Shown here piece by piece: positions 1 to 50,518 of a stretch of DNA of 52,186 bases. A program made the translations under genes and the position numbers. Origin of the DNA: a virus; IMG/VR virus record IMGVR_UViG_3300048091_000150, positions 1-52,186 of that record. One strand, written 5' to 3'. The notes below the pieces were generated by a model, which was given only the letters and a program-made list of their open reading frames with translations, was not told the DNA's origin and ran no database searches. Within the stretch, counting starts at the first letter, position 1. Each line of letters begins with the position of its first letter.

Positions 1-425
1 CATTAAGTAAGTCCATGTTGCTGACAACGCGCACATGGCTACCTCATAACCGATTGGCCGGGCGGACCGCCGCTTATACCGCTAGATCCTGTGGAGTAGT
101 CACCGCAGGGGAAATGATCCCGCAGTTACCCACTTAGTGACGGGGAAAGGGCAGCGGCAATAACCAGCGAACTAGTGGTGACGTAGAAGGAACGGGCAAG
201 GGCCCGTTGTAGCGAGCCAATCGGGGCAATACCGAGCGCATTACTGCATTGCCTACGGTAGGCATGGCAATACCCGGATTCAGCAGGACCATGGCAACGC
301 GAGTGACTGATACTCACTCGGTTGTGGGCTGGTCCCTATGGCCGGTGAGCGTGCCTACCTAGGGGAGTGTCGTAAGGCACTTGCAAGGGCCCGTAAGGGC
401 CGAGCACAACCCCTAAGGGGAAGCA
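1..425. other. Noncoding, hairpin-rich leader of left arm
   Basis: No convincing gene is seen. The stretch holds several short perfect inverted repeats: GGCGG-A-CCGCC (61-71), AACGGGC-AAGG-GCCCGTT (about 191-208), TGCCTAC-G-GTAGGCA (250-264), GGCCC-GTAA-GGGCC (388-401) and CCCC-TAA-GGGG (410-420, which ends in the ribosome site of the first gene). A weak promoter-like pair, CTGACA (21-26) and CATAAC (45-50) with 18 bp between, lies at the left edge. It is probably the structured 5' leader of the rightward operon; the promoter is a guess. Confidence 0.45.
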
Positions 426-731
426 ATGGCAACAGTAGCGGCAGAGTTCCGTGTGGAACGGCGTAAGCGGGAGTCCATCCCTCTGCGTCCGTTCGGTTTC
501 TGGTCTGAATATCAGCGTCACGACACGTTCCGAGTCAGCATCATCGGACGTGGTGAGCGTGAGCCGTTTGTCTATGACGTGCGCTCATTCGGAAACATGA
601 CTGCATCTGTACGTTCCTTCGCTGAGTGCGCCGGTATGGCCGGTGAGGCAACGCGAGGCATGGCAGACATTTACCGGACCGGATACGGGATGGTGAACGG
701 GTTCAACGTGCGGGTAACGCCAATCGCGTAA
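426..731 (+). CDS. Hypothetical protein, 101 aa
   Basis: First gene of the left arm. The ATG follows an AGGGGAAG ribosome site. The product is basic at the N-terminus (arginine-rich around residues 9-16) and has no motif that I recognise: no membrane segment, no cysteine cluster. It is followed by a 12-bp gap and then a strong conserved hairpin (744-772). Function unknown; small early actinophage proteins in such positions often act on the host, but nothing here shows that. Confidence 0.7.
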   Translation: MATVAAEFRVERRKRESIPLRPFGFWSEYQRHDTFRVSIIGRGEREPFVYDVRSFGNMTASVRSFAECAGMAGEATRGMADIYRTGYGMVNGFNVRVTPIA

Positions 732-743
732 GGGTAGGTCGAG

Positions 744-772
744 CGCACGGGACAGAGTCAGTGTCCCGTGCG
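744..772 (+). promoter_or_regulatory. GRGTCAG-loop hairpin, copy 1
   Basis: Perfect 11-bp stem CGCACGGGACA / TGTCCCGTGCG around the loop GAGTCAG (755-761), between stop 731 and start 823. It belongs to a family of five intergenic hairpins with a constant GRGTCAG loop. No U-run follows, so it is not a classic terminator. Confidence 0.8.
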
Positions 773-781
773 TTTCCTTAC

Positions 782-803
782 CCGTTACGACAATGCGTAA
801 CGG
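782..803 (+). promoter_or_regulatory. Second hairpin, just before ribosome site, copy 1
   Basis: CCGTTACG (782-789) pairs with CGTAACGG (796-803) around a 6-nt loop. The ribosome site GGGAGG (810-815) follows after 6 nt. The same position is held by unlike but again self-complementary sequences at 1623-1647 and 1994-2018. Confidence 0.65.
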
Positions 804-822
804 AGCAATGGGAGGTAACGCA

Positions 823-1344
823 GTGAAGGTCATTCCTTGGATGTACCACACCCGTAACGGCCGTGGCTATCAGTTGATCATGTCTGGGCACCGTCAATAC
901 AACGTGGTTTGGATGTACGGAGCGGATCACGTCGTCATACAGGTCTGTGACAAGCACGAGGACCCTGACGCTAAGTTCACCGAGCACAAGCGCGTGAGCA
1001 TCCCTGGGGACTACAAGGGGAAGTGGTGGGAGGACATTGCAACGGGCATGGAAGATCACATGCGCGTCATTTGCAGCGGCCTTACCCGTGATTGGGAGGG
1101 TTACAGCGGCATGGATGAATTCCGCGAGGAATGGTCCATGCACAAGTGGACTCCCAAGCAAAGGGTCACGCTCCGGTCCATTACTGGGGGGGACGTGCTG
1201 GGAATCGTCACGGGTACCGAACGTCTGGGAACGCGACGTGTCGTAAAGGTCCGTGTGACGTCCCGTAAAAATGGCCTGTACCGGTGTGGAGAGATACTTG
1301 AGATCTCCCCCACTAACCCGTGGCTTAAGTCTCGGGAGGTCTGA
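823..1344 (+). CDS. Hypothetical protein, 173 aa
   Basis: Chosen start is GTG 823, 7 nt after GGGAGG (810-815). In-frame ATGs at 793 and 808 exist, but 793 lies in the second hairpin and 808 has only GGAG two bases upstream. The product is mixed in charge with many tryptophan and tyrosine residues; no motif recognised. Stop at 1344 is 2 nt before the next start, so the two genes are probably cotranslated. Confidence 0.65.
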   Translation: MKVIPWMYHTRNGRGYQLIMSGHRQYNVVWMYGADHVVIQVCDKHEDPDAKFTEHKRVSIPGDYKGKWWEDIATGMEDHMRVICSGLTRDWEGYSGMDEFREEWSMHKWTPKQRVTLRSITGGDVLGIVTGTERLGTRRVVKVRVTSRKNGLYRCGEILEISPTNPWLKSREV

Positions 1345-1346
1345 CC

Positions 1347-1559
1347 ATGGCAACGGAGTTTCATACGTTTCACGTGACGCTCGGACACATGATGGGCCCT
1401 CATCGGTCCCGTGACAAAGCTGAGCGGGAAGCGGACAAGCTACGGGCAGAGTGCCCGTGTGAGGGGGATGAGTCATGCGCGAATGACGACATGTTCCCGC
1501 ACGGCATATCCGTTAGTAAGTCCGTGGACGGTTATTGGGGCAACGGTCCCGACTACTAG
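1347..1559 (+). CDS. Hypothetical protein, 70 aa
   Basis: Starts 2 nt after the previous stop, with the ribosome site GGGAGGTC inside the end of that gene. The N-terminal half is histidine-rich and the middle carries three cysteines (CPCEGDESC), which might bind a metal. The C-terminal half has no recognisable feature. Function unknown. Confidence 0.65.
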   Translation: MATEFHTFHVTLGHMMGPHRSRDKAEREADKLRAECPCEGDESCANDDMFPHGISVSKSVDGYWGNGPDY

Positions 1560-1585
1560 GCCAGTCCGCTGAATAGGTATCGGAT

Positions 1586-1612
1586 GCACAGGACAGGGTC
1601 AGTGTCCTGTGC
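1586..1612 (+). promoter_or_regulatory. GRGTCAG-loop hairpin, copy 2
   Basis: Perfect 10-bp stem GCACAGGACA / TGTCCTGTGC around GGGTCAG (1596-1602). Compared with copy 1 the stem has paired changes on both sides, so base pairing is kept while sequence changes; the loop differs only at its second base. Confidence 0.8.
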
Positions 1613-1622
1613 TTCCCCTTAC

Positions 1623-1647
1623 CTACTGCGTACAGGACGTGCAGTAG
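1623..1647 (+). promoter_or_regulatory. Second hairpin, just before ribosome site, copy 2
   Basis: CTACTGC (1623-1629) pairs with GCAGTAG (1641-1647). The ribosome site GGAGG (1655-1659) follows. Same place and similar size as the hairpins at 782-803 and 1994-2018, with a different sequence. Confidence 0.55.
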
Positions 1648-1666
1648 CGCAAGTGGAGGTAAAGCA

Positions 1667-1930
1667 ATGGACATCATGTTCATGGTTACGTTTATCGGCA
1701 TCAACGGGCGCACGTACATGGAATCTCGTCTGTGTCCGGATCGTGTGGAGGACCGACAGGCTTTCGCTAAGTGGTGTGGCCAGACCGGGTTGGAGCGTCA
1801 CAAAGAATACGTGTGCGCTCAGATATCCGGATTCAATGCGGACGATCCGGAGCTTGGGACCGTCAGCCTCGCTACGTACAACCGTGAGTATTTCGCACGG
1901 TTCCCTCAGACCATGCCTGCCAACTACTGA
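1667..1930 (+). CDS. Hypothetical protein, 87 aa
   Basis: ATG 7 nt after GGAGG. Starts with a hydrophobic stretch (MDIMFMVTFIGING) and then becomes acidic and polar; three cysteines are scattered. It does not look like a full membrane segment. Function unknown. Both flanks carry members of the GRGTCAG hairpin family. Confidence 0.65.
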   Translation: MDIMFMVTFIGINGRTYMESRLCPDRVEDRQAFAKWCGQTGLERHKEYVCAQISGFNADDPELGTVSLATYNREYFARFPQTMPANY

Positions 1931-1955
1931 TCTAAGCCGTAACCGGTAGGTCGAG

Positions 1956-1984
1956 CGCACGGGACAGAGTCAGTGTCCCGTGCG
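1956..1984 (+). promoter_or_regulatory. GRGTCAG-loop hairpin, copy 3
   Basis: Same 11-bp stem and GAGTCAG loop as copy 1; about 40 bases here match the stretch around 734-774, so these two are recent duplicates. Confidence 0.8.
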
Positions 1985-1993
1985 TTCCCTTAC

Positions 1994-2018
1994 CTGTTGC
2001 GTATCAGACACGTGACAG
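1994..2018 (+). promoter_or_regulatory. Second hairpin, just before ribosome site, copy 3
   Basis: CTGTTGCGT (1994-2002) pairs with ACGTGACAG (2010-2018), using two G-U pairs, around a 7-nt loop. The ribosome site AAAGG (2026-2030) follows. Confidence 0.55.
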
Positions 2019-2037
2019 AGCAATGAAAGGCAAGCAA

Positions 2038-2397
2038 ATGCAGACGTACGTCAAGCGTGACGCATGGGGCAACTCTGAGACTCGGCCGATTGGTGCGCCG
2101 GTTACCCACAAGGGTGAGTCGCCGGAATCCCTGGTTGGCCGCTCGGTCCTGGTTCGACCGTATTACCACGTGCCGCATGGACGTTCCTCCCTCACCTCTG
2201 CCCGTTCGCCGTTCGTGTTCGAGGCAGATGTCATTGAAACGTTCGGCGGGGAAATGGTCAAAGTCCGGTTTACCTGGGTAACGGACTCCCCTTGGAAGCG
2301 GGAAGCCATCTTCTACCCCAACGAGCTGCACATGGTGCACGTGTGTGAGTGCGACGCATGCAAGGGGGACGGAATCCAGGAACTCAGGGGCGCCTAA
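2038..2397 (+). CDS. Hypothetical protein with C-terminal cysteine cluster, 119 aa
   Basis: Start ATG 2038 is 7 nt after AAAGG; an upstream in-frame ATG at 2023 would read through the ribosome site. The C-terminal end carries CECDACKGDG, a small cysteine knot resembling half of a zinc ribbon. The body has a predicted beta-rich look (alternating hydrophobics VLVRPYYHV, VKVRFTWV). Function unknown. Confidence 0.65.
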   Translation: MQTYVKRDAWGNSETRPIGAPVTHKGESPESLVGRSVLVRPYYHVPHGRSSLTSARSPFVFEADVIETFGGEMVKVRFTWVTDSPWKREAIFYPNELHMVHVCECDACKGDGIQELRGA

Positions 2398-2416
2398 AGT
2401 CATCCGCTAGGCAACC

Positions 2417-2449
2417 GGCACACGGTACAGGGTCAGTGTTCCGTGTGCC
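2417..2449 (+). promoter_or_regulatory. GRGTCAG-loop hairpin, copy 4
   Basis: 13-bp stem GGCACACGGTACA / TGTTCCGTGTGCC with one T-T mismatch, loop GGGTCAG (2430-2436). The second hairpin seen after copies 1-3 is missing here. Confidence 0.75.
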
Positions 2450-2478
2450 TTCCCGCTCACTCTGAAAGGCATAAAGAC

Positions 2479-2664
2479 ATGGGTATGAGGACTGTTGTGA
2501 TCGCGCTCGCTAGCGCGCTCCTGTCTGCCGCTACGGCGGCAGGAATCACGTATCACGCCATGGAATCCCGCGTGTTCAGCGTGACCGTGGACAAGTTCAA
2601 CGAGGGTTTCCGGGACGGCGCATGCCGGAACGGGGAGGACGGTTTCGGGAACATCTGCCGCTAG
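2479..2664 (+). CDS. Small membrane or exported protein, 61 aa
   Basis: ATG follows AAAGG (2465-2469) by 9 nt; an in-frame ATG two codons later is also possible. Residues 4-25 (TVVIALASALLSAATAAGIT) form one hydrophobic segment with a positive N-terminus, so this is a signal peptide or a single membrane anchor. The remainder is short, acidic and has two cysteines. No family recognised. Confidence 0.65.
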   Translation: MGMRTVVIALASALLSAATAAGITYHAMESRVFSVTVDKFNEGFRDGACRNGEDGFGNICR

Positions 2665-2745
2665 AGATTGACCGTAGAGGGCATGGGCAGTGTCACCCGG
2701 TTATCCGGGCAGGATCACTCATGCCCTACTCGGCCAGTCTCTAGA
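2661..2745 (+). promoter_or_regulatory. Long 85-nt extended hairpin
   Basis: The arms 2661-2685 and about 2720-2744 pair end to end (CTAGAGA with TCTCTAG, CGG with CCG, AGGGCATG with CATGCCCT), broken by a small internal loop. An inner stem CCCGG (2696-2700) / CCGGG (2705-2709) is capped by TTAT. It lies between stop 2664 and the ribosome site of the gene at 2780, where the other intergenic gaps have a GRGTCAG hairpin. No U-run follows. Confidence 0.7.
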
Positions 2746-2779
2746 GACAGGCTCTGAGACGAGACAGGAAGGCAAACAC

Positions 2780-3514
2780 ATGAGCATTGTTGACCTTACG
2801 AACGTGTGGCGAGAAAACCCTCACACGGCGGATATCCGCTACCTGGGGGGATGGATGACCTCCCCCACCTACCGAGGATGCATTGTCCGTGAGTCGTCCG
2901 GACAGTGGGCGGTCCGGCCCCGTGATCCGTGGACGGATACGGACTACACCGTCACCTACGCTCAGACGCTTGAGGACGCGCGTAAGGCACTTGAGAACGT
3001 GACCCCTGGTGGTCACAAGTGCGAGATATTCGTAGACCAGTGGGTAGGCCACTGCCCGGAACGGGCCTCTGTCGTTGTGTCGCAGGGAGACGAGACTCCG
3101 CTATCACGCCTCCTGCTTTGCAGGGTGCATGCGGTGCACGTGTTCAAGGGTGCGAACCGAGTGTCCGTAGAGGAATGGGAGGCCACTCGCGGACGCCTGA
3201 CGTCCGAGGGTGGGCCTATTGTCGGTGAGCGCATCGCGCCTCCCATGGCGCCGGTAAAGCGTAGTGACTTCCTGAGTGAGCCCGTTGTGTGGGGTGATGA
3301 CTGGAAGGGTCATGTCCTCGGAATGACGCTTACACAGGACGTACGTAGAGGTGACCTGGTGATGTTCCAAGGAACGGGCGCCTATGAGGTCCAGTCCATA
3401 GACGTCTGTCCGATTCCTCACAGTGAGGATCTCTGGCGATTCTCGTGCAACGGCGGAACCGTTTACGGCACGTATTACGACCGTGCCGTTCCGGTCCTTT
3501 ACAGGCCTTTCTAA
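2780..3514 (+). CDS. Hypothetical protein, 244 aa
   Basis: ATG 2780 follows AGGAAGG; a longer frame from 2690 would run through the long hairpin and is unlikely. The middle holds a possible metal site (HKCEIF, GHCPER, CRVHAVH). The rest is mixed, with a C-terminal stretch of alternating hydrophobics. No family recognised. Confidence 0.65.
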   Translation: MSIVDLTNVWRENPHTADIRYLGGWMTSPTYRGCIVRESSGQWAVRPRDPWTDTDYTVTYAQTLEDARKALENVTPGGHKCEIFVDQWVGHCPERASVVVSQGDETPLSRLLLCRVHAVHVFKGANRVSVEEWEATRGRLTSEGGPIVGERIAPPMAPVKRSDFLSEPVVWGDDWKGHVLGMTLTQDVRRGDLVMFQGTGAYEVQSIDVCPIPHSEDLWRFSCNGGTVYGTYYDRAVPVLYRPF

Positions 3515-3529
3515 CGGTCGAATGGAAGC

Positions 3530-3560
3530 GGGAGGCAGTCAGGGTCAGTGACTGCCTCCC
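3530..3560 (+). promoter_or_regulatory. GRGTCAG-loop hairpin, copy 5
   Basis: Perfect 12-bp stem GGGAGGCAGTCA / TGACTGCCTCCC around GGGTCAG (3542-3548). The stem has almost nothing in common with copies 1-4 while the loop is kept: strong evidence of selection on structure plus loop. Confidence 0.8.
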
Positions 3561-3579
3561 CTGGATTAGGGGAGGACGC

Positions 3580-3921
3580 ATGGACGTTGTGACGGAGGAA
3601 ACGGCGACGCATTGCGCGGCAGGGGGCATTGGTGAGCCCTTGGATTTGCGCGTACGCGTCTACTGGGTCGCGGGTAAGTCGGGTGCCCGGCTCGTGCTCT
3701 CGGACCTGGAAACGGCCGAGGAATACGGGTATTGGGACGTCGATACGGTCGATCCCATGCCGGGAGAGACGATCCCTGATCAGGAACTCAATAGGTTCGT
3801 GGGTACGCATCTGCGTAAGTGGCAGATGATCGGATCCGGGTGGACCGTGGACCCAATATCCCTCGCAGCCCATTTCTCGCTTGAATGGGGCTGGAAGTGG
3901 GTCCCTGAGAAGTTGGCCTAG
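3580..3921 (+). CDS. Hypothetical protein, 113 aa
   Basis: ATG 3580 follows TAGGGGAGGACGC; the longer open frame from 3445 runs through the hairpin and is rejected. Acidic protein with several tryptophans near the C-terminus (WSGW-like spacing around GSGWTVD and EWGWKWV). Function unknown. Confidence 0.65.
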   Translation: MDVVTEETATHCAAGGIGEPLDLRVRVYWVAGKSGARLVLSDLETAEEYGYWDVDTVDPMPGETIPDQELNRFVGTHLRKWQMIGSGWTVDPISLAAHFSLEWGWKWVPEKLA

Positions 3922-3934
3922 TTCGGAGCTTTGT

Positions 3935-3957
3935 GGACCGGCCTTATGCGCCGGTCC
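3935..3957 (+). promoter_or_regulatory. Intergenic hairpin
   Basis: Perfect 8-bp stem GGACCGGC / GCCGGTCC around the 7-nt loop CTTATGC. The loop length matches the GRGTCAG family but not its sequence. It supports placing the next start at 4005 rather than 3933. Confidence 0.6.
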
Positions 3958-4004
3958 TCATTGCCCAGCACTGGGAACGGCTGGAGACAAGGGGAGGACA
4001 GCAG

Positions 4005-4280
4005 GTGTCGGAAGTGAGGCAGTACGGGCCCGTACCTACGGGCGGAGTCAAGACGTGGGCCGAGGATGTGAGGCTCGCGCACGAGGGCTCTTGGGTGGCC
4101 GCAGGGCTCCCTACCTCCACGGAACGGCTGGCAGCGCTCACAAGGCTGTTTCAGGCCCTGGGGGAGGCCTCCACTCGGTACGCTTGCCCGCGTGAGGCCG
4201 CTAGGCGCCTTGTGTGGGAGGCAGTCAGGAGCTACCGATCCGCTCTCGCGGCTCGTGTCCTGAAAGGGGTGAGGGTGTGA
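4005..4280 (+). CDS. Hypothetical protein, 91 aa
   Basis: GTG 4005 lies 7 nt after GGGGAGG (3991-3997). A longer frame from GTG 3933 would overlap the hairpin and has only CGGAG. The product is alanine- and arginine-rich and looks largely helical (residues about 25-91). The stop TGA shares a base with the next ATG (TGATG). Function unknown. Confidence 0.55.
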   Translation: MSEVRQYGPVPTGGVKTWAEDVRLAHEGSWVAAGLPTSTERLAALTRLFQALGEASTRYACPREAARRLVWEAVRSYRSALAARVLKGVRV

Positions 4281-4447
4281 TGGGCGAATACAGGGTGTGT
4301 CTACAAGCCACGGTGTCCGTGTGGGTGACCGTTACGGCAAACTCGGGGCAAGAGGCCAACCGAAAGGCACGGGAGCAAGCTCCGACGGTCAAGGGTGTGA
4401 AGTCGTGGAGTCCCGTAATGACTTGCGACATGAACAGGAAGTTCTGA
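4280..4447 (+). CDS. Hypothetical protein, 55 aa
   Basis: ATG overlaps the previous stop, with AAAGGGG about 11-15 nt upstream. The N-terminal part alternates hydrophobic and polar residues (CLQATVSVWVTVTA), suggesting a beta hairpin; the rest is basic. Resembles many small actinophage proteins of unknown role. Confidence 0.6.
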   Translation: MGEYRVCLQATVSVWVTVTANSGQEANRKAREQAPTVKGVKSWSPVMTCDMNRKF

Positions 4448-4448
4448 G

Positions 4449-4754
4449 GTGAGCACGATTAACAGCGCTAATCAGCAGGAATCAGAAACTGTCCGCGCAA
4501 TGGATCGTGGTTACGAGGCCATGAACAAGGCAATTGCGTTCACCGAACGCCACGGGTTCAAGTCGTACCGGTTCGGCATTGGCGTTGCCATAGGCAGTAA
4601 GCGGGAACTTCGAGACGTCCACATTGGCGTTAACACGTGGGCATTCAAGGGCGCCTCTGTGGAGTTCGATGAGGCTGCGGGGACGATAACCGTTACGCCT
4701 TCCGAGTCGGACGGCCGTAGGGCATTCATCTATCACGGACGGAAGTCCAAGTGA
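4449..4754 (+). CDS. Hypothetical protein, 101 aa
   Basis: GTG start one base after the previous stop, with AGGAAG upstream. N-terminal half helical and polar, C-terminal half beta-like. No cysteine, no membrane segment, no recognised family. The stop overlaps the next start by four bases (GTGA). Confidence 0.6.
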   Translation: MSTINSANQQESETVRAMDRGYEAMNKAIAFTERHGFKSYRFGIGVAIGSKRELRDVHIGVNTWAFKGASVEFDEAAGTITVTPSESDGRRAFIYHGRKSK

Positions 4755-4837
4755 CCGGGGGCGAACTGGCCTGGTTCATAGTCGCGTATGTGCTCGGCAG
4801 CCTGGTTACGGCTGCCGCCATGAAACGTGGCAGGTAA
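4751..4837 (+). CDS. Membrane microprotein, 28 aa
   Basis: GTG start in a GTGA overlap with the gene before. The product is almost entirely one membrane helix (ELAWFIVAYVLGSLVTAAAM, residues 4-23) followed by KRGR, so it would sit in the inner membrane with a positive cytoplasmic tail. Translational coupling is the main support; there is no separate strong ribosome site. Confidence 0.5.
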   Translation: MTGGELAWFIVAYVLGSLVTAAAMKRGR

Positions 4838-4948
4838 AGGGTAACTGAGCTGCTTTGGGGAGGGCATAGCCGCTTACGCGTCTGGCCCGAACCATGGACG
4901 CTCATGCGCTCAGCATGACGTGCAAGTAACCGACTAGAGAGAGGCCAC

Positions 4949-6541
4949 GTGGAAACGCAAGGGCGATATGAGGACATGGCCTATGGGCCCATCGGTAAAG
5001 AGGTCTTGGCATCGCAGCCGTATACGGAAGCGGACCCGATCGGAGTGCACGCGGCCATGCTCGCGCTCTTCTCGGCCGCTACCAACGGGCATGTGACGCA
5101 GCCTGGTGGACGACCCATTGTGGTCTGGACGGCCCTCGTTGGCCGGTCGTCCATCGGATGCAAGGGAACGGCGCTTGAGGCTGCGGAACACATCCTCAGT
5201 GAGGGTCTCGGTACCTTCCTGAATATCCACCGTCGGGGAGGTATCTCCTCTGGCCCGTCGCTCATCAACACACTGCATGAGCAGCACGAAAAGAGCCTAC
5301 TCACCGATGGTGGACCGGACGGCCGGATCGTTGTGATTGAGGAGGAGTGGCAGAACCAACTACGGCGCACGAATCGGTGCCCTACCTTCTCGGGCAACTT
5401 CCGTACCGTGTGGGACGGTAAGACGGTCACGAACACGACTAAGGGGAAGAAGGCTGGGGAGCGGGAGGAACAGCGGGTAGACAGTCCGCTTATGGGCTTC
5501 CACTCGCATATCCAGCCGGGGGCATGGTCCAAGTACATCAGCAGCACGGAAGCGCTGGGAGGCTCGTATAACCGCATCCTTCCCGTGCTCGTGGAGATGT
5601 CCAAGGTTCTCCCCTCTCCGGAGGATGGAGAGGAGCGGCCCATCTACCAATACGAGCCGTCCAAGGCTTTCAAGTTGGCATACGAGTGGGCACGCAAGGA
5701 ACCGCGTGTGATGACGCTGAGTTCTGCGGCGCGTAAGCGGTATGACCAACTGCGTATGCAATACCTAGAGGAGACCGCGAAGCTTCCGGAAGTGCTGGCT
5801 TCGTTCATCGAGAGGTCTGCTGAGCAGGTTTGGCGGGTGGCTGCCGTTCTCACGGCAGCGAACCGGAAGACGCTCATTCCCCTTGACGCTGTCGAGGCCG
5901 CTGCCGCATTCGTGAATTACTCGATTGACAGCGTCACCACGTTGCAGAGCAACGCGGGAAGCACTGGAGGACGTACGCCTACTCCCCTTGACGAGTTGAT
6001 CCGTAGGGCTCTCCATAAGAGGGCCGACAGGGAAGCTACCCGCTCTCAGCTTTACAGGGCCCTTGGCTCCGGTCGCTTTACTGCCGACGAGATCGAGCAA
6101 GAGGCAACCCTCATGCCGGACGTGGAGATCTATACGCCGCCTCGCAAGGTGGGTAGGTCGGGGGCTCCTGCTCGTCTTTTCCGGCTCATCGAGGCGGAGC
6201 CGACTCCGGAACCGAAGGCGGCCACGGTTCCGCAACAGGCGGAAGCGGAAGCGTTCCTCAACCAGTACGCGGAGTGGGCCGGACAGGCGGGCAACGCTGG
6301 CAAGAGCTTTACCGACTTCCTGAGTCACCTTCAGCAGGCGGCCAAGCCTCCCGCCCGGAAGGCGGCTGCGAAGCGTTCAGCGGCCCCCAGCTCGACCACC
6401 ACCAGGACCAGGGGCACGGCAGCGAAGAAGGCCACGGCCAAGACTGCTGCCAAGGCCGTTGCCAAGACTCCTGCTCAGCGGACAGTGTCAGCGGCAGGTG
6501 CTAAGAAGACTGCGGCGGCGAACACGCCCGCCGGTAACTGA
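4949..6541 (+). CDS. DUF3987-like ATPase with histone-like C-terminal tail, 530 aa
   Basis: GTG start after GAGAGAGG. Residues about 55-240 look like the DUF3987-type ATPases of actinobacterial plasmids and phages: a P-loop-like GRSSIGCKGTA, a Walker-B-like IVVIEEEW, a sensor-like MGFHSHIQP and a YNRILPVLVEMSKVLP block. The P-loop departs from GxxxxGK[ST]. Residues about 350-415 look like a winged-helix region. From about residue 465 the tail is lysine/alanine-rich in the manner of histone H1 or HupB, suggesting DNA binding. In related proteins a link to replication or primase-helicase work is suspected; here that is inference. By far the largest gene of this arm and probably its functional centre. 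Confidence 0.6.
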   Translation: METQGRYEDMAYGPIGKEVLASQPYTEADPIGVHAAMLALFSAATNGHVTQPGGRPIVVWTALVGRSSIGCKGTALEAAEHILSEGLGTFLNIHRRGGISSGPSLINTLHEQHEKSLLTDGGPDGRIVVIEEEWQNQLRRTNRCPTFSGNFRTVWDGKTVTNTTKGKKAGEREEQRVDSPLMGFHSHIQPGAWSKYISSTEALGGSYNRILPVLVEMSKVLPSPEDGEERPIYQYEPSKAFKLAYEWARKEPRVMTLSSAARKRYDQLRMQYLEETAKLPEVLASFIERSAEQVWRVAAVLTAANRKTLIPLDAVEAAAAFVNYSIDSVTTLQSNAGSTGGRTPTPLDELIRRALHKRADREATRSQLYRALGSGRFTADEIEQEATLMPDVEIYTPPRKVGRSGAPARLFRLIEAEPTPEPKAATVPQQAEAEAFLNQYAEWAGQAGNAGKSFTDFLSHLQQAAKPPARKAAAKRSAAPSSTTTRTRGTAAKKATAKTAAKAVAKTPAQRTVSAAGAKKTAAANTPAGN

Positions 6542-8578: not shown

Positions 8579-8746
8579 ATGCCGTCTCAATCGACTGGGG
8601 GCCGGAATGGTCCGGCCCCCTCGGGGATGCCCAAGGTTCGGCCGGTCAAGTCACGAGCGGTGCAGGGCCGGTATTCGCAGCTCTGCCGGAAGTGGTCCGT
8701 CATCTCGTCTGACGAGAGTGCACGTGACCTGCACGAGCTTTTCTAA
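8579..8746 (+). CDS. Small basic protein, 55 aa
   Basis: ATG 1 nt after the previous stop, with GATGAGGA upstream as a possible ribosome site. Strongly basic N-terminal two thirds (KVRPVKSRAVQGRY), acidic end. Might bind nucleic acid; unproven. Confidence 0.5.
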   Translation: MPSQSTGGRNGPAPSGMPKVRPVKSRAVQGRYSQLCRKWSVISSDESARDLHELF

Positions 8747-34084: not shown

Positions 34085-34561
34085 GTGGCTGCACTTCCTG
34101 AAAGCGATCTCGAATTGCAACAGCTCCTTTCCGCTGGCCTGACTGGCGTTGAGATTGCGCGGAGCTATCACGTGACCCCCGAGGCCGTTTACAAGCGGTT
34201 CGACAAAATGGGGATTAAGCATAAGGGCCCCGAGAGCCCTGTTACTGCTGTCCTGCCATGGGACATTGCGAATCACCCAGAGAAGAGACGACTAACAAAC
34301 CAAGCGCCTTTCAGGGGATTGAGGTACTACCTGATGAGGCGCATGGGTCAGTCCCTGAGTGAGCGGGCAGAGGCAGACCTGAAAGCCTTCCTCAACCGCG
34401 TGCGGAACGGGGACGTCCTGGAGCTGGCAGAGGGCGCAGGCTTCCGGTACGTGTCTCGACAGCCCTCGGACGGCCGCTTGGTCATCCGCTGGCCAGACGG
34501 CATACCGATGGGGCCAGGGGCGCCGTACTTCGTGGATGACCTAGCCCAGGAGGAGGGGTAA
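34085..34561 (+). CDS. Helix-turn-helix DNA-binding protein, repressor candidate, 158 aa
   Basis: GTG start after AAAGGAAAG. N-terminal helix-turn-helix (about residues 8-42: LELQQLLSAGLTGVEIARSYHVTPEAVYKRFDKMGI). Next, a basic region (MRRMGQSLSERAEADLKAFLNRVRNG) and a beta-rich C-terminus. It is the first rightward gene after the control region and is closed off by its own terminator, as expected of a regulator. Whether it is the lysogeny repressor is inference; no second repressor candidate is seen in the window. Confidence 0.7.
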   Translation: MAALPESDLELQQLLSAGLTGVEIARSYHVTPEAVYKRFDKMGIKHKGPESPVTAVLPWDIANHPEKRRLTNQAPFRGLRYYLMRRMGQSLSERAEADLKAFLNRVRNGDVLELAEGAGFRYVSRQPSDGRLVIRWPDGIPMGPGAPYFVDDLAQEEG

Positions 34562-36126: not shown

Positions 36127-36135
36127 ATATTCAGG

Positions 36136-36164
36136 TTGCGGTGACACTGCCGCAGGCATATGCT
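36136..36164 (+). promoter_or_regulatory. Candidate promoter inside AGGTTGCGGTGA motif
   Basis: TTGCGG (36136-36141), 17-bp spacer, TATGCT (36159-36164). The -35 box lies in AGGTTGCGGTGA, a motif repeated at 36216-36227 and, inverted, at 50503-50514. Confidence 0.5.
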
Positions 36165-36211: not shown

Positions 36212-36245
36212 GTTAGGTTGCGGTGATGCGGGGGCTCGGTACAGA
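36212..36245 (+). promoter_or_regulatory. Candidate promoter with 16-bp shared motif
   Basis: GTTAGGTTGCGGTGAT (36212-36227) is repeated exactly, inverted, at 50503-50518. TTGCGG (36218-36223) and TACAGA (36240-36245), 16 bp apart, could drive the next gene. Confidence 0.5.
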
Positions 36246-50502: not shown

Positions 50503-50518
50503 ATCACCGCAACCTAAC
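50503..50518 (-). repeat. 16-bp motif, inverted copy of 36212-36227
   Basis: Reads ATCACCGCAACCTAAC on the plus strand, the exact reverse complement of GTTAGGTTGCGGTGAT at 36212. No -10 box fits on the minus strand, so here it looks like a protein-binding site. Confidence 0.7.

Follow-up and report, generated by a model that had tools for sequence, protein, structure and literature searches.

The DNA analysed here (the window, IMG/VR virus record IMGVR_UViG_3300048091_000150, 52,186 nucleotides in length) comprises the genome of a Streptomyces siphophage that has the phages Success and Ponzi among its relatives. Near its left end, five gaps between genes each contain a hairpin, and while the stems vary among the copies, the loop reads G(A/G)GTCAG in all five. 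The same kind of hairpin is found in about 20 distinct related phages, nearly each of them with a loop sequence of its own (we will call this sequence the loop word and the hairpin carrying it a tag). The pattern suggests a virus-specific, lock-and-key type of control of the early genes. Our leading reading, held tentatively, is that an RNA-binding protein encoded by the phage, with a boxB-like, phage-private specificity, docks at these hairpins at the gene boundaries of the early mRNA.

Five hairpins with one loop in the window

The hairpins belong to the left-end operon on the + strand, which is putatively early by analogy of genome layout. They are the following, with z-scores of folding against the shuffles of each.

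741-775, + strand: tag hairpin 1, stem 744-754/762-772 (11 bp), loop GAGTCAG at 755-761, z -7.0
1582-1616, + strand: tag hairpin 2, stem 1586-1595/1603-1612 (10 bp), loop GGGTCAG at 1596-1602, z -4.4
1953-1987, + strand: tag hairpin 3, core 1956-1984 (11 bp), loop GAGTCAG at 1967-1973, z -6.7
2417-2449, + strand: tag hairpin 4, 13 pairs including one U-U mismatch, loop GGGTCAG at 2430-2436, z -2.3
3530-3560, + strand: tag hairpin 5, 12 bp, loop GGGTCAG at 3542-3548, z -3.8

All five thus fold better than their own shuffles, from z -2.3 (copy 4) to z -7.0 (copy 1). A preliminary description of this DNA had reported five hairpins, each between a stop codon and the next start, with stems that differ by paired changes around a fixed loop. 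We recovered all of them at the same positions and in the same setting, and found changes on both sides of the stem at 8 of 11 pairs among the copies (0 of 500 shuffles). The core of hairpin 1 (744-772), extended by G-U pairs to 741-775, recurs as the same 29 nt in hairpin 3, and the stem base of hairpin 5 (GGGAGGC/GCCTCCC) is common to the relative G001, whose loop is GATGCG. Two features had escaped the preliminary description. Hairpins 1 to 3 have outer stems (732-738/777-783, 1574-1579/1620-1625 and 1945-1950/1989-1994, respectively), and the constant core is longer, comprising the 11 nt CAGRGTCAGTG. This core occurs five times in the window, solely at the hairpins and always on the + (coding) strand, against 0.12 copies expected, and none of 100 shuffles reached five. 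Since the bare 7-mer GRGTCAG is not enriched (21 found vs 24.8 expected), it is the combination of loop and stem that is special.

Loop words in related phages

The closest named relatives of the window are the phages Success, Ponzi and Ibantik, all three isolated on S. lividans; further relatives are the IMG/VR records G001 and G002, numerous other contigs and parts of Streptomyces genomes. We have retrieved relatives by searching with an alignment of the neighbouring primase-like protein (43 viral loci and 12 loci in bacterial genomes) and looked for families of hairpins by a hairpin-loop scan, using dinucleotide-shuffled genomes as control. The preliminary description had staked its proposal on a covariance search finding further intergenic copies in related phages; in the spirit of that test, the hairpin-loop scan found them in the roughly 20 phages mentioned. 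The number of strong hairpins sharing a 7-mer loop was five in the window, seven in Success, five in G009 and five in G017, while among 270 shuffled genomes the number was one in 229 and two in 41, and none reached three. Success, with hairpins in the gaps corresponding to those of the window, has nine copies of its loop word AAGGACAC in the genome, all of them in hairpin loops and on one strand (none on the other), one of the nine being inside a gene. Loop words elsewhere are GATGCG in G001, AGGGGTAC in G002 and GTCGAGA in Ponzi; further ones are AGGCTA, AGGGATG, GAGTAAG, GTAGCAG, GTCGATG, GAGGAAG, ATGAGTAG, AGGGACAC, ATGGTGC, TTGATGT, ATTGACG, CCAAAGT, TCCTAAG, TTGGGATG, TTGGAATG and TTGGAGTG, the families of two or three copies being weaker taken alone. 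The loops are mostly of 7-9 nt, and the best-sampled phages have 5-9 sites. The scan detected no such family in Ibantik and some other relatives, and at most two hairpins sharing a loop in the distant control phages R4, Kimona and VroomVroom and in the P318 stretch. Another control phage, Shady, has five hairpins sharing a loop, with a central GTAACGTT. The Thermobifida phage P318 was discarded as a case of the same pattern, its hairpins having similar stems and varying loops. In the relative L055, three hairpins (at 2176, 3908 and 4635) all have a GAAA tetraloop and no private word.

The behaviour of stem and loop can be followed in a gapless alignment of 26 hairpins with 7-nt loops from eight phages. 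Here 98% of the cells are paired, a value that none of 500 shuffles came near, and double-sided changes affect 11 of 11 pairs. Loop identity is 0.97 within a phage and 0.38 between phages, and stem identity 0.63 and 0.57, respectively. The paired changes and these identities bear out the earlier proposal that selection acts on pairing plus loop. At imperfect stem positions of the coding strand (scored by Watson-Crick pairing) G-U combinations outnumber A-C ones by 76 to 15 from a practically equal background (0.115 vs 0.120), and the bias is clear in most groups of phages. This indicates that base pairing is preserved in the sense RNA, the coding DNA strand by itself being a less likely alternative.

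A way to see the loop change independently of its surroundings is to compare orthologous hairpins. In G017 and G020 the flanks of such a pair are identical at 58 of 60 bases and the loops are GAGTAAG and GTAGCAG; between Success and G010, again with 58 of 60 flanking bases identical, the loops are AAGGACAC and AGGGACAC. The site ahead of the gene for an Lsr2-like protein reads GTTTCCGTGTAAGGACACGACGGAAAC in Success and TTTTCCGTGTAGGGGTACGACGGAAAC in G002. With orthologous flanks and stems preserved and the word switched, the change has affected the loop at the sites of a genome and left the surroundings as they were.

The tag hairpins are located at a median of 14 nt past the upstream stop codon, and many of them are far from the ribosome-binding site that serves the following gene. 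One extra copy is located at the other end of the genome in Success, G009 and G001, and in the first two it is found behind a two-gene operon facing a convergent gene. This position fits terminators, processing sites or nut-like sites, and not elements of translation start. In the Ponzi-type group the stems are GC-rich and end in GGGCCTTTT, close to intrinsic terminators. A simple scan found no promoter at the tag sites, and a comparison with Rfam matched nothing but tRNAs in the window (at gathering scores) and nothing up to E 1 in the Success leader.

The remainder of the window has a layout like that of Success, with the late genes on the - strand, replication genes and eleven tRNA genes. 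Two features adjoin the row of hairpins.

426-731, + strand: opening gene of the putative early operon, encoding 101 aa of no known family, immediately before hairpin 1
4845-4945, + strand: site ahead of the primase-like gene, orthologous to one with a tag hairpin in relatives; in the window it has no tag and folds no better than shuffles (z -0.8)

Ahead of this opening gene, the leader (300-425) contains several small hairpins in succession, GAGTGACTGATACTCACTC, GTGTCGTAAGGCAC, GGCCCGTAAGGGCC and CCCCTAAGGGG; the CTGATAC hairpin and GTGTCGTAAGGCACTTGCAAGGG are also present in Success. Between two of the putative early genes there is also a long, extended and nearly perfect hairpin (2661-2744, z -6.6 against shuffles), whose loop does not contain the tag. 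Many relatives encode, shortly ahead of the Lsr2-like gene, a protein of 40-60 aa with the signature MPxxR...VQGR(Y/F)...KW (about 8590-8746 in the window). The repeat TGCCGGCGG, with 26 copies in Success (L001, L030) against 1.4 expected, was set aside as unrelated to the tags; it is nearly always inside genes and on both strands, and the window lacks it.

Readings of the loop word

Under the reading that we favour, the hairpins would act in cis, as RNA elements located where one gene of the early polycistronic transcript gives way to the next. Their stem would display a short word (CA-GRGUCAG-UG in the window), the same throughout a phage and different in nearly every relative, and a phage-encoded RNA-binding protein would read this word on the nascent early mRNA. 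Once bound, the reader would decide whether the polymerase stops, pauses or reads through at the hairpin behind each stop codon. It is the position of the tags and their terminator-like forms that point to elongation or termination, rather than mRNA processing, as the controlled step; the broader proposal of the preliminary description, control or maturation of the early RNA by the hairpins, is plausible.

That description had left the choice between a protein and an RNA as reader, and of these the RNA fares poorly. An antisense or kissing RNA of the phage that pairs with the loop would yield arbitrary words that change together, as seen here. However, complements of the loops are absent or at about chance level in whole genomes, conserved flanks and hairpin loops, and the hairpin loops of a phage match the complement of its own tag no more often than the complements of other phages' tags (0.37 vs 0.40), so that we regard such a partner as very improbable. 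An 11-nt match in the leader of L039, examined as a possible RNA partner, turned out to be the genome-wide operator-like motif of L039. Because the word is private and no RNA partner was found, a protein encoded by the phage is suggested as the reader. We have considered as candidates the Lsr2-like protein and the 46-60 aa protein ahead of it, the first early gene and the gene downstream of the immunity repressor, and saw none of them track the tag. Every genome with tags has the Lsr2-like gene, and Ibantik lacks it (one data point). There are also small basic early proteins, which gave no family match to the arginine-rich N type and none of which was seen to track the tag.

Several observations weigh against a protein that reads the RNA. 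No reader protein was found, nor any known RNA-binding family among the early proteins scanned. The window hairpins lack a U-run, as already described, and give no sign of termination (0 intrinsic-terminator matches in positions 1-5000). The G-U bias is absent in the Ponzi-type group, where the stems are nearly perfect and informative positions few, and its p-value is too small, orthologous sites being non-independent. The constancy of the loop within a phage is partly circular, since the families were picked up via their loops; the orthologous pairs with switched words suffer less from this selection. Finally, in three genomes (G014, G018 and G019) the loop word is a putative site of a DNA-binding repressor, and the reader there may act on DNA.

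This last point leads to the best-documented alternative for that one subclade, a DNA operator in the loop. Generalized to all the phages, it would make the loop a double-stranded DNA stoperator of a monomeric repressor of the cluster A type, which silences the early operon in lysogens, with the word following immunity specificity. A repressor with a helix-turn-helix (HTH) motif, of one family, is encoded in 18 of the 18 genomes compared. In the window its gene (34085-34561) is akin to the repressor of cluster A mycobacteriophages (PHROG 357, E 1.6e-9; PDB 7r6r, E 0.0097), for which there is a structure with an asymmetric DNA site. The loop word of G014, G018 and G019, AAGTTGGnnTGTGA, recurs in sense orientation throughout these genomes, also near the repressor gene. 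Each of them has more than 10 copies, almost always oriented with transcription and often directly past a stop codon or before a terminator. The residues of the recognition helix are moreover the same in phages with similar words, and the repressor was for these reasons the reader that we favoured first. Divergence of the repressor ranks 40 of 62 for G017/G020 and 1 of 49 for Success/G002. The case is weakened by the other phages, most of which have a separate motif of the AAnTTG...GACA type, unlike the tag, in the places expected of operators, which we take as putative repressor sites by analogy. In the window this role would perhaps fall to AGGTTGCGGTGA (36133-36144 and 36215-36226 on the + strand, 50504-50515 on the - strand), with three exact copies, or four with one mismatch, against 0.34 expected. 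G017 and Ponzi have nearly the same stoperator-like motif and different tags, and in G016, G021, G011 and G012 tag and stoperator-like motif share one intergenic gap. Outside G014, G018 and G019, exact tags near the repressor gene are absent, save for one chance-level match of the short word of G015, and the intergenic tags are not accompanied by copies at the early promoter and the repressor gene. The coexistence of the separate motif makes the tag probably not the repressor site in most phages, and the G-U bias, implying that RNA pairing matters, also argues against it; as a general explanation the DNA stoperator is, in our view, unlikely.

A close rival to the docking of an RNA-binding protein that controls elongation, and one that we rate as somewhat unlikely, is that an endonuclease or translational regulator with a phage-specific reader acts on the early mRNA at the hairpins, in processing or protection of the 3' end. 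The location right behind stop codons, the lack of a U-run in the window and the pairing in the sense RNA all agree with it, but a nuclease of the host would not give phage-private words, and many sites are far from the next ribosome-binding site. Another rival would be ordinary terminator-like hairpin cassettes spread by recombination, as the PeSL of phage T4 are, with a loop kept constant by recent duplication. Copies 1 and 3 of the window are indeed identical over 29 nt, and similar stems recur within a phage. Yet within a phage it is the stems that diverge and the loop that stays (0.63 vs 0.97), and between phages orthologous stems persist where loops change; such switching at fixed places is not explained by recent duplication within one phage, and we find this origin quite improbable.

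A further step would be to see in the tags a diversifying code of RNA loops, in which the same array of hairpins is kept and the word changes at all sites together with its reader, which would keep co-infecting or resident phages from reading the early transcripts of one another. We consider this possible, although doubtful. If true, the code would be a counterpart of immunity groups at the level of RNA. Some 20 natural phages with one hairpin scaffold and differing words offer ready material for the discovery of a new RNA-binding protein and of the code by which it recognises its target. If encoded by the phage, the reader would reveal how early transcription is controlled in Streptomyces phages and whether RNA signals stay private, and the tags might provide orthogonal RNA tags for the engineering of Streptomyces.

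Comparison with known systems

Searches of the literature under open licence gave no such hairpins in actinophages, and to our knowledge control of early genes by virus-specific loop words has not been described before. The nearest parallel is N and the nut boxB of lambdoid phages, a short RNA hairpin of the early transcript with a phage-private loop that is the same, or nearly so, at all sites. The tags would likewise be hairpins of an early transcript (early by analogy of layout) with a phage-private loop. Unlike boxB, they are located at many gene gaps rather than once per operon and have longer stems and loops of mostly 7-9 nt. There is no boxA next to the tag hairpins; the leaders of some phages contain an rrn-type boxA-like sequence, with a single copy in the genome. 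This sequence, CCTTGA(G/A)AACT(C/G)AA(C/T)AG, resembles the boxA of actinobacterial rRNA and appears once upstream of the early operon in several phages (L001, the Success leader; L033 at 3203; L034 at 1954; L046 at 822; L064 at 1796; L066 at 4874; L067 at 4580; and the Ibantik leader). It suggests antitermination of the rrn type in early transcription.

The PeSL cassettes of T4 are stem-loops between early genes, as the tags are, and we know of no phage-private loop word in them. In the conserved inverted repeats of the phiC31 type the palindrome itself is the repeated operator. As in the tags, several hairpin-like sites share a central word, a pattern seen in Shady, whose central GTAACGTT presumably belongs to the conserved inverted repeats of phiC31 relatives; in the tags, by contrast, the arms vary and the loop is constant.

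The preliminary description had looked for kinship in the start-associated sequences with dyads (SAS/ESAS) of cluster K mycobacteriophages. SAS lie 3-7 bp before the start codon and have one sequence throughout the cluster, and ESAS combine conserved inverted repeats with a variable spacer (PMC3203893). The tags share with them being repeated, oriented intergenic elements, with inverted repeats in part of SAS/ESAS. The kinship fails on position (the tags follow the stop codon), on constancy of sequence and on the part conserved, since variable arms around a constant loop are the reverse of ESAS.

The stoperators of cluster A phages such as L5 and TipsytheTRex are asymmetric, sense-oriented and intergenic, with a word that varies by phage (PMC9283540, PMC6550527). 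The tags resemble them in being oriented and intergenic, in a word that varies by phage and in a homologous repressor encoded by the genome. They differ from stoperators in being displayed in the loops of RNA hairpins, nearly always within the early region in most phages, and beside a separate stoperator-like motif.

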